A DNA stretch of 64,000 nt, from NCBI GenBank assembly GCA_027067055.1, contig JAMOMK010000129.1:1-64000 (forward strand), read 5' to 3'. Source of the stretch: Lysobacterales bacterium. GTDB lineage: Bacteria > Pseudomonadota > Gammaproteobacteria > Xanthomonadales > Marinicellaceae. Made by a program: the position numbers and the translations under genes. The notes below the pieces were generated by a model. That model worked only from the letters and a program-made list of their open reading frames with translations, searched no databases and was not told where the DNA came from. How positions within the stretch are numbered: position 1 is the first letter of the stretch; the number at the start of each line of letters is the position of its first letter. This document shows, in pieces, positions 1 through 50,400 of the stretch.

Positions 1-430
1 TTTTATTGCTTATGATTTCCGATGCATCTATATCTAGAGTGATGTATTTGATGTCTTTAAGCCCAATACGACAGAGTTCTTTATTGATTGAGGAAATGGC
101 ATTGACTCCTGTTGTTCCCATTCTACGTAACCAATCACCAACAGTACCTGGCGTTGGGATATTTTTCAAACCCAGTAATTTTGTTAGGGTTTCATCTTTT
201 TTGAGGTACTTCAAATCATCTAAACGTATGCCGCCTTCGTGTTGCATTAGTACCAATGAGTTGATAAATACTGATGGTTTGAAACCTCGGTTACTTTTAG
301 GCAATGCAAAATGTTTGTCGATTAGGTTTGTAAGTTTTAGTTTCTGCATTAAGGTGGCGATTGCAAGCAATCCGCCTCTGGATGTTAAAAGTTCATGCGT
401 TGTTGATAGGTTGTGTGGTAATATGTTCAT
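1..430 (-). CDS. IS1380-family DDE transposase, N-terminal 143 residues (partial)
   Basis: The minus-strand frame from ATG at 428-430 stays open to the window edge. The translation has the typical IS1380 order: an N-terminal segment with TSRGGLLAI, then PKSNRGFKPS (about residue 45), LMQHEGG and LDDLKYL, then TPGTVGDWLRRMG, and finally YITLDIDAS near residue 135. The last stretch carries the first catalytic aspartate of the DDE domain. The catalytic core and C-terminus are beyond the window, so it cannot be judged whether the copy is intact. Transcription runs away from the disrupted FG-GAP gene. The plus-strand frame over 6-473 is a shadow of this gene. Confidence 0.85.
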   Translation of the reverse strand, partial: MNILPHNLSTTHELLTSRGGLLAIATLMQKLKLTNLIDKHFALPKSNRGFKPSVFINSLVLMQHEGGIRLDDLKYLKKDETLTKLLGLKNIPTPGTVGDWLRRMGTTGVNAISSINKELCRIGLKDIKYITLDIDASEIISNK

Positions 431-530
431 AAGCCTTGGTTTCACCCTTTGGGTGGTATTTGATTTGTCGTAAAACCATTATACACCAAGGCTTCTAGCT
501 TGTTTTGACTTTTCTATATCGGGATTAGGG
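1..530 (-). mobile_element. IS1380-family insertion sequence, one end only (cut by window edge)
   Basis: The window opens inside an insertion sequence. It holds the 5' part of a transposase gene on the minus strand, and its outer end is taken as 530. The outer 20 bases, read inward on the minus strand, are CCCTAATCCCGATATAGAAA (530-511). The same sequence with one change forms both ends of the MITE at 49939-50101, and this fixes the boundary. Immediately after 530 an FG-GAP repeat protein frame begins in mid-gene, so the element interrupts that gene. The other end and the target duplication lie outside the window. The family call rests on the transposase N-terminus and on IS1380-like ends that begin CC. 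Confidence 0.82.
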
Positions 531-48604: not shown

Positions 48605-49681
48605 ATGACTTTATTAATTCTGATTGCTAGTGCTTCAATATTCTTTTCTTTTTTATGCTCTATTCTTGAAGCTGTTTTACTAAGTGTCACTCCAACATTT
48701 ACTAATATCAAAAAGAAAGAAGGCAAAAAATACGCACATGCCTTAGAGCAACTCAAAAATGACGTTGATAAACCACTCATAGCAATACTAACACTCAATA
48801 CTGTCGCACATACTGTTGGGGCAATTTTGGTAGGTGTGCAGGCTGAAAAGGCTTTTGGTTCTGGCAATAACATCGTGGGTACAGTTTCAGTTATCATGAC
48901 TTTGTTGATTTTAGTTCTTTCTGAAATTATTCCAAAAACTATAGGAGCAACATACTGGAGGGAGCTTGCAGGAATCTCTACTAGAATATTAACATTGCTA
49001 ATTTTTGTCTGTAAATGGACAGGTATCATCTGGGCGCTGCAATTGTTTACAAAGCTTTTCGGTAAAAGTAACCATGGTCAAAGCATTTTAAGCAGGGAAG
49101 ACTTTCACGTAATGACCGATATTGCCCATGAAGAAGGTGTTTTTGAAGAATCAGAGTCTAAAGTTATTAAAAATCTATTGAATTTTAAAAACATTTTGGC
49201 CAAGGATATAATGACTCCAAGAACCGTGTTAAAAACAGCATCAGAGGAACAAACCGCAAAAGATTTTTTCGATAAAAATAAAAATCTACAATTTTCAAGA
49301 ATACCTGTTTATAAAGATGATAGTGATGACATTACGGGTTATATTTTAAAAGATGATGTATACAAAAATGTTGCTGAAGATAATAATGAAATAAAACTGG
49401 CAGATTTAAAGCGTGAGTTATTGATTGTTCTTTTAAATGCACCAATACCTGATTTATTTGAAAAGTTTATTCAGAAAAAAGAACACATCGCTTTAGTTGT
49501 TGATGAGTACGGCTCGACTGCTGGTTTGGTAACTATGGAGGATGTTATTGAAACGTTGCTAGGTCTGGAAATTATGGATGAAAGCGACACTAGCTCCGAC
49601 ATGCAGCAACTGGCTAGGGAAAACTGGCAAAAACGAGCAAAACGTCTAGGGATTATAGATAATAACGAAAAAACTTCATGA
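48605..49681 (+). CDS. CNNM (DUF21)-CBS membrane protein, CorC/HlyC-like
   Basis: The 358-residue protein has a DUF21 (CNNM) membrane domain with four hydrophobic segments (about 1-145), including LTLNTVAHTVGAILVG and VLSEIIPKTIGATYWR. A CBS pair follows at about 190-330, with DIMTPRTVLKTA, LQFSRIPVYKD and HIALVVDEYGSTAGLVTMEDVIETLLG. Such proteins are linked to Mg2+/Na+ homeostasis. There is no C-terminal transporter-associated CorC_HlyC domain, so it is a short form. Its stop overlaps by 4 bp the start of the broken gene at 49678. Confidence 0.88.
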   Translation: MTLLILIASASIFFSFLCSILEAVLLSVTPTFTNIKKKEGKKYAHALEQLKNDVDKPLIAILTLNTVAHTVGAILVGVQAEKAFGSGNNIVGTVSVIMTLLILVLSEIIPKTIGATYWRELAGISTRILTLLIFVCKWTGIIWALQLFTKLFGKSNHGQSILSREDFHVMTDIAHEEGVFEESESKVIKNLLNFKNILAKDIMTPRTVLKTASEEQTAKDFFDKNKNLQFSRIPVYKDDSDDITGYILKDDVYKNVAEDNNEIKLADLKRELLIVLLNAPIPDLFEKFIQKKEHIALVVDEYGSTAGLVTMEDVIETLLGLEIMDESDTSSDMQQLARENWQKRAKRLGIIDNNEKTS

Positions 49682-50400
49682 AAAGTAGTTCTAAATATTT
49701 AATCATAGCTATTGTTACATTTATTGTAGGCTATATTTTTTTAAGACAGGCGTATTTTTCTACCTCAGAGATTCCATTTGCCCAAGAAATCATCTTATTA
49801 GTGTTGGGAACAATTGCTACCATTGCAATTACTGCGGCGCTATTAAATAAACAGAGTGAAATTGAACTAGAAAAAGAGCAACGAGTCAAAATATTTGATT
49901 TAAAATCAGACACCTATTTTGGACTAATCGACTTTATACCCAAATCCCGATATAGAAAGTACGATGATAGCACAAGTCCTTAATGCACCTAGAAAACCCA
50001 GAAAAAGCTTCATCACCAATGAGGTGACTTTAGTTTTTCTTGATTTCCTATGCACATCAGTTACTTGCACTCTCAAACGCATTTCTATATCGGGATTTGG
50101 GTTATAGAAAAAGTGATAATTCAGGGCGAGATAGACAAAAAAGATTTAATCCAACTCGAATTTTTAACTCATAAAATTTCAACAATTGCATCACTTGATG
50201 TCTTAAAAGAGTACTCCAACTTTATTAATGTGATAAAAACGACATCCAGAGACAAACAAATTACTAGCTTAGAGTCAGAAGAGCTGTCCTTAAGTCTAGC
50301 TAAACTATGCGGAATGATACGCTATGATTTAATTGCCAGTGATTCAAAATCTCAAATTGAGATACAAAAACTTATCGAAAACAATATTGATAAAATCTAG
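49678..50400 (+). pseudogene. Small two-helix membrane protein gene interrupted by a MITE
   Basis: The start ATG overlaps the CNNM stop (ATGA). The first 87 codons, to ATA at 49936-49938, encode two membrane helices (about 7-24 and 36-56), then a charged stretch ending YFGLIDFI. A 163-bp element plus a TTATA duplication (168 bp) then interrupts the frame with several stops. From GAA 50107 the same frame continues for 97 codons (EKVIIQGEIDKKDL...) to TAG at 50398-50400. Deleting the insert gives one 184-residue protein. Today only a truncated 101-residue product could be made from the native start. No known family is recognised. Confidence 0.82.
49939..50101. mobile_element. 163-bp MITE with perfect 20-bp terminal inverted repeats (IS1380-type ends)
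   Basis: The left end CCCAAATCCCGATATAGAAA (49939-49958) is the exact reverse complement of the right end (50082-50101). The element is flanked by TTATA on both sides (49934-49938 and 50102-50106), a 5-bp target duplication. The IS end at 511-530 differs from this repeat at one of 20 positions. The 123-bp interior encodes nothing recognisable and shares no clear similarity with the visible IS interior. It was most likely moved by a transposase of the IS1380 type. Confidence 0.88.

Follow-up and report, generated by a model that had tools for sequence, protein, structure and literature searches.

Small, multi-copy elements bounded by terminal inverted repeats (TIRs) and flanked by target-site duplications (TSDs) include Chunjie in Geobacter, QMITE2 in Coxiella and the Correia elements. 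The element described here, a 163-bp MITE in a 64,000-nucleotide stretch of a Lysobacterales genome (the whole of which we call the window), shares these features as well as their AT-rich, mostly intergenic sites and stable hairpin. It differs from all three in its TIR, for its own ends tie it to the IS1380 family of insertion sequences. Disruption of genes by such elements has precedents: Chunjie-1 is reported to disrupt one copy of two phosphate-uptake operons (PMC10969869), and in Anabaena sp. 90 disrupted ORFs are reported to hold 15 of 147 MITEs (PMC3542288). The Anabaena elements resemble ours in disrupting genes and creating pseudogenes, but they were called type II because their genome yielded no insertion sequence with similar ends, whereas such insertion sequences are present here. 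Rickettsia palindromic elements and the enterobacterial RU (ERIC) repeats are described as being some 100-170 bp long, having open frames and being able to enter genes (PMC10969869, PMC2759123). Our element is like them in all three respects; unlike them, the insertion in the window is not in an open frame and has no coding signature.

ISEcp1 belongs to the IS1380 family. The MITE resembles this family in that its ends are identical or nearly identical to those of IS1380-family elements in own genome and in a Deltaproteobacteria contig, and in its 5-bp target duplications, the latter also being reported for ISEcp1 (PMC2887853), but it is only 163 bp long, lacks a transposase and has an interior that is not detectably related. 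In the available portions of the literature that we searched, we met no link between a MITE and IS1380 ends. We are highly confident in the reading developed below, that a MITE with TIRs and a TSD broke a gene and was most likely moved in trans by an IS1380-family transposase. The MITE family to which it belongs is new but of a familiar type, and the insertion by itself is of no more than local interest.

The element and the gene it interrupts

The initial annotation had described perfect 20-bp inverted ends with TTATA on both sides, and this is correct to the base: the left TIR reads CCCAAATCCCGATATAGAAA and the right TIR is its exact reverse complement (20/20 bp; Table 1). The longest possible frame in the element has 54 codons, and there is no transposase gene. 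Its identity as a MITE is borne out by its small size, by the lack of a transposase gene, by its TIRs and TSD, by its many copies and by empty sites in relatives.

The insertion point follows codon 87 of a 184-codon gene. Leaving out 163+5 bp by script gave one 184-codon frame in which GLIDFI is joined to EKVIIQ, just as the initial annotation had proposed, and the ORFs at 49678-49983 and 50050-50400, which look separate but share a frame, are indeed one broken gene; the annotation should be corrected from two small genes to this one. Four in-frame stops within the element separate the two ORFs (TAA at 49981, TAG at 49990, TGA at 50020 and TGA at 50041), and the element supplies the start ATG of the second (50050). 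The insert amounts to 168 bp, or 56 codons, so the length of the frame is preserved. In the inserted orientation and phase, however, the four stops brought by the MITE would end the product after 101 residues (87 from the gene and 14 from the MITE), and this truncated product is probably dead. Neither half of the gene carries a further lesion.

Table 1. Coordinates and details of the features discussed; positions are those of the window unless a contig is named.
Feature	Position	Strand	Basis or detail
MITE, 163 bp, full-length imperfect palindrome	49939..50101	+	sequence, copies, folding, alignment
Left 20-bp TIR	49939..49958	+	sequence
Right 20-bp TIR	50082..50101	-	sequence
Left TSD TTATA	49934..49938	.	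sequence
Right TSD TTATA	50102..50106	.	sequence
Interrupted 184-codon gene	49678..50400	+	residues 3-27 and 31-58 hydrophobic
Conserved apical hairpin	50012..50028	.	CACC-AATNA-GGTG, A and T tracts alongside
IS1380-family fragment, likely mobilising relative	1..530	-	TIR CCCTAATCCCGATATAGAAA at 511-530
IS1380-family element, 1575 bp, broken	C114:6305-7879 (L098)		TSD TAGAA
Empty site of window copy			spanning ORF 184 codons
Empty site of L145			spanning ORF 184 codons, mid-gene
Empty site of L125			spanning ORF 143 codons, near end
Empty site of L179			spanning ORF 205 codons, near end

The start of the gene overlaps by 4 bp the stop of an upstream CNNM/CBS-domain gene, and the gene is flanked by ORFs that we take, from their sequences, to be kbl and tdh. 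A hydropathy scan finds two hydrophobic segments in the 184-residue product, and the intact orthologue matches no Pfam or NCBIfam family above cut-off. A protein search of 41 genomes gave matches in five, own genome included. Two members of the same genus, G009 and G004, carry the gene whole (residues 1-184, 78% identity) and with no insert, and more distant relatives, likewise uninterrupted, occur in G013 (residues 6-165, 41% identity) and G038 (residues 2-167, 39% identity). The empty site in G009 and G004 reads GACTTTATTGAG and is exact. The initial annotation had predicted an intact orthologue with TTATA once at the junction; the uninterrupted orthologue exists, but the predicted word does not, since in both genomes it is TTATT, present once, against TTATA here, a difference that is silent. 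The view of a broken gene is upheld by these single, uninterrupted orthologues, among which we saw neither of the two patterns named beforehand as contrary to it, namely the same 163 bp at this site in distant species or two separate conserved genes.

Read by eye, the neighbours of the orthologue in G009 look like kbl and tdh and one neighbour in G004 looks like kbl, and in neither genome is the CNNM gene adjacent. Estimates of dN against the two orthologues are 0.14-0.15, with dS undefined (saturated) or 2.7, which argues that the protein was constrained before the insertion. The same protein search found no match in 8 of the 11 genomes of the genus; the gene is therefore patchy and may be dispensable. 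The initial annotation had also called the insertion recent, which is supported, but not dated, by the clean gene halves and by one other copy of the element (in C43) that is 100% identical to the window copy, the remaining near-full copies being 92-99% identical.

Given that both halves are clean and share a frame, and that an ATG stands at 50050, one might suppose that the gene has been split and not destroyed, the second half being expressed from the MITE's own start codon and both halves working together. This we think very unlikely: the orthologues are single proteins, the sole promoter-like site in the region (50357-50385) is located close to where the second ORF ends, and the hydropathy scan finds no hydrophobic segment in the host-derived part of the second half. 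We hold to the reading of a gene broken by the MITE.

Copies, target sites and open frames

A search of the 163 bp across the genome, as the initial annotation had suggested, recovered no fewer than 31 near-full copies, each covering 161 bp or more of the 163 at 92-100% identity, and at least nine partial places, a lower bound because 40 of 112 first-look candidates were scored. The 20-mer of the TIR, with up to three mismatches, occurs at 129 sites in the same genome (65 forward, 64 reverse), compared with none for the reversed control. Among 61 genomes the 163-bp sequence is matched in ten, comprising 10 of the 11 genomes of one genus and none of the 50 other relatives, while the 20-mer with at most one mismatch occurs in 9 of the 11 and in none of 22 genomes from other genera of the family. 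The plasmid and phage collections hold no match to the MITE at E 1e-5.

To describe the target sites we used a sample of 90 copies with paired TIRs, a length of 155-172 and a bit score of at least 75 to the window copy, of which 33 came from own genome and 57 from genomes of the genus and contigs holding the exact 20-mer. Exact 5-bp flanking repeats accompany 56 of the 90 (own 27/33, others 29/57), against a mean of 3.6 and a maximum of 10 in 2000 shuffled-flank controls, and are absent from the other 34; the target consensus is TAWTA. A spanning ORF of at least 143 codons is found at 4 of the 56 empty sites with clean TSDs (Table 1); at the remaining 52 no such ORF exceeds 75 codons. One of the four sites (L145 1001-1163; G000 C96:23102-23264), in the middle of another 184-codon ORF, holds a relative of the MITE that has diverged: its likeness to the MITE is 73% in one orientation, which is no more than that of the element to its own reverse complement. 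At another (L125 1001-1163; G000 C112:4314-4476), close to where the 143-codon ORF ends, the MITE is read in its open frame.

Such readable copies raise the question of whether the element is an in-frame peptide insert, in the manner of the Rickettsia palindromic elements, selected to remain readable. The 163+5 bp make up 168 bp; of the 72 sampled copies that are gap-free at 163 bp, 63 and 52 respectively have a stop-free frame on one strand and on the other; and read-through of the copy in L125 yields a 199-codon ORF, whose neighbour presumably encodes a PIN-domain protein. We aligned the gap-free copies in 66 rows, 65 of them distinct, leaving out L144, L145, L198, L200, L203 and L080 for weak match and doubtful orientation, and in these rows stop-creating changes number 2 against 12.3 expected on one strand and 8 against 14.6 on the other. 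However, the stop-free frames were chosen after looking, and column permutation, uncorrected for that choice, gives p 0.007-0.009 for the first frame and 0.2-0.3 for the second, where the depletion is thus not significant. Stops are depleted on terminal branches too, where no coding role is expected, and among the other four frames, which range from 10 stops against 14.0 expected to 37 against 25.0, the last, a control frame, deviates in the opposite direction. Codon position leaves no pattern (p 0.25), and in neither frame does variability peak at the third position; moreover, insertion sites are mostly outside long ORFs and the window copy itself is read in a frame with four stops. A peptide insert is very improbable on this showing, and a coding role for the MITE was rejected on the missing codon-position signal, although the depletion of stops in one frame per strand is left unexplained. 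We return to the element as a MITE that broke a gene.

The palindrome as a possible hairpin

The whole element folds at -56.1 kcal/mol (z -8.4); the interior of the window copy alone is unexceptional at z -1.5, while two diverged relatives in own genome reach -6.9 and -7.7. An alternative reading is that the element persists as a regulatory hairpin, for instance a two-way terminator, and that the insertion in the window is a by-product. The apex of the element is conserved, and a simple consensus scan marks it as terminator-like on either strand (2 sites, with 0.3 expected from shuffles). Across the 65 distinct copies, 90.6% of cells pair, and 22 pairs have changed on both sides, against 12.9 in shuffled alignments and at most 16 when the structure is slid; counted by cells, 107 have changed at both partners without loss of the pair (32.9 shuffled, at most 53 slid), and 11 interior double changes fall on the same branch of the inferred tree (0-6 slid).

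The counts of pairs and cells are nevertheless made on the window copy's own structure, which favours it over the slid versions, and the consensus structure predicted from the alignment has 25 pairs only, with a covariation term of -0.95 kcal/mol. Of 178 single changes at interior pairs, 43 leave the pairing intact and 87 disrupt it. G-U pairs show no clear excess over A-C mismatches, at 143 cells to 113 and 21 types to 25, so that no RNA strand stands out, and Rfam finds nothing at gathering scores in the window. Nor is there a clear excess of insertions between convergent genes (own 10/33, others 9/57, where such gaps make up 861 of the window's 5106 intergenic bp), and symmetric binding by a transposase or arm-to-arm conversion could equally keep a palindrome. 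The paired changes support some maintenance of the palindrome, though not of a particular RNA strand. In its fullest form the hairpin reading would have a MITE lineage with IS1380 ends, spread across one genus, be held by selection on its structure at 163 bp (the length of 72/90 sampled copies) as a full-length palindrome readable on both strands, a two-way module (terminator or processing site) tolerated by its hosts, its ends unchanged across phyla; were this true, the ends would have stayed constant by tracking a conserved transposase. We judge both the simpler and the fuller version unlikely, but the paired changes across copies make selection on the hairpin testable. The preferred reading is still that of a MITE most likely mobilised in trans, for which the evidence lies in its ends and duplication length.

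Insertion sequences and other elements with the same or nearly the same ends

Insertion sequences with almost the same ends exist in own genome. The 1575-bp element in Table 1 ends in CCCTAATCCCGATATAGAAA and CCCAAATCCCGATATAGAAC, each with one mismatch to the MITE's TIR, and encodes a 308-residue transposase piece that scores 67 bits against PF13701, the IS1380-type transposase domain (cut-off 34.7), and 164 bits against NF033539, which is under the cut-off of 180. At C143:20040-20059 an exact 20-mer adjoins a C-terminal transposase fragment, and the window itself begins in a further IS fragment, inside which the contig breaks, as expected for a repeated IS. Six fragments with such ends, among them the one in the window, share 95-99% identity, as would be the case for recently multiplied copies, and are 84.5-86.3% identical to the 1575-bp copy; for four of them a contig end is no more than 75 bp away. 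L082, a contig with a Deltaproteobacteria label, carries a 1649-bp element with the TSD CGAAT, one exact 20-mer as its end and six mismatches at the other, and a transposase scoring 256 bits against NF033539 (cut-off 180). The duplication is thus 5 bp long in the MITE, in the IS of own genome and in that of L082. Given these nearly identical 20-bp ends and 5-bp duplications, an IS1380-mobilised MITE is the best reading of the element, and judged from shared ends and duplication length it is most likely an IS1380-family transposase that moved it in trans.

A PF13701 profile search of the genomes gave nine matches in own genome, all partial or with a stop, four below the family's cut-off and several at contig ends, and this assembly yielded no intact full-length transposase with these ends. 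The domain is matched in 3 of the 11 genomes of the genus only, as against 10 of the 11 for the MITE. Two full-length IS1380-type transposases (L096 in G009, L097 in G003) have no end within five mismatches in the flanking DNA examined and so seem to belong to another IS. An origin of the MITE's interior by deletion from the IS is not borne out: over 90 bases tested from each IS end there is no similarity beyond the TIR above that of shuffles, and blastn of the whole IS against the MITE returned only the ends and one 14-base match at E 0.10. Within 1.8 kb of these 20-bp ends in two contigs of genus members (L028 and L090) there are ORFs that we assume, from their resemblance, to be REP-associated tyrosine transposases.

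The exact 20-mer occurs in at least 74 stretches from at least 29 assemblies (accession prefixes, counted by hand), for a chance expectation of about 0.5 in 257 Gb at equal base frequencies. Among the matches listed, the window's genus accounts for 6 prefixes; 12 are labelled as Nitrospirae, Nitrospiria or Nitrospira and 7 as Deltaproteobacteria, Thermodesulfobacteriota or Syntrophaceae; the rest comprise another Gammaproteobacterium, one Cyclobacteriaceae and two without a label. The end offers a simple 20-letter probe for IS1380 elements and MITE-sized elements across phyla. Its first 17 bases, on one strand, gave no match in the literature searched. The Cyclobacteriaceae contig (L037, JAMOMJ010000346.1) might suggest horizontal transfer to the Bacteroidota, but it was more likely misbinned in a Cyclobacteriaceae MAG: it carries a 618-residue ORF with 66% identity to one in G008, a member of the genus, and looks like a contig of the window's genus.

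We folded nine MITE-sized elements from outside the genus, which give z -4.9 to -11.1 at full length and -1.5 to -6.2 for their interiors. None of the nine matches the window MITE beyond the ends, and seven have an inverted repeat of the GTCATTGCGAG type while two do not. Since unrelated interiors share the same end, this 20-bp end appears, from the sequences compared, to have bounded several independent MITEs. The words GTCATTGCGAG and CTCGCAATGAC retrieved no bacterial repeat paper by title in the literature searched. Six elements (L031, L052, L069, L070, L088 and L091), from Nitrospirae, Deltaproteobacteria and one unlabelled contig, combine the same ends with interiors of the form GTCATTGCGAG...CTCGCAATGAC, that of L088 differing by one base.
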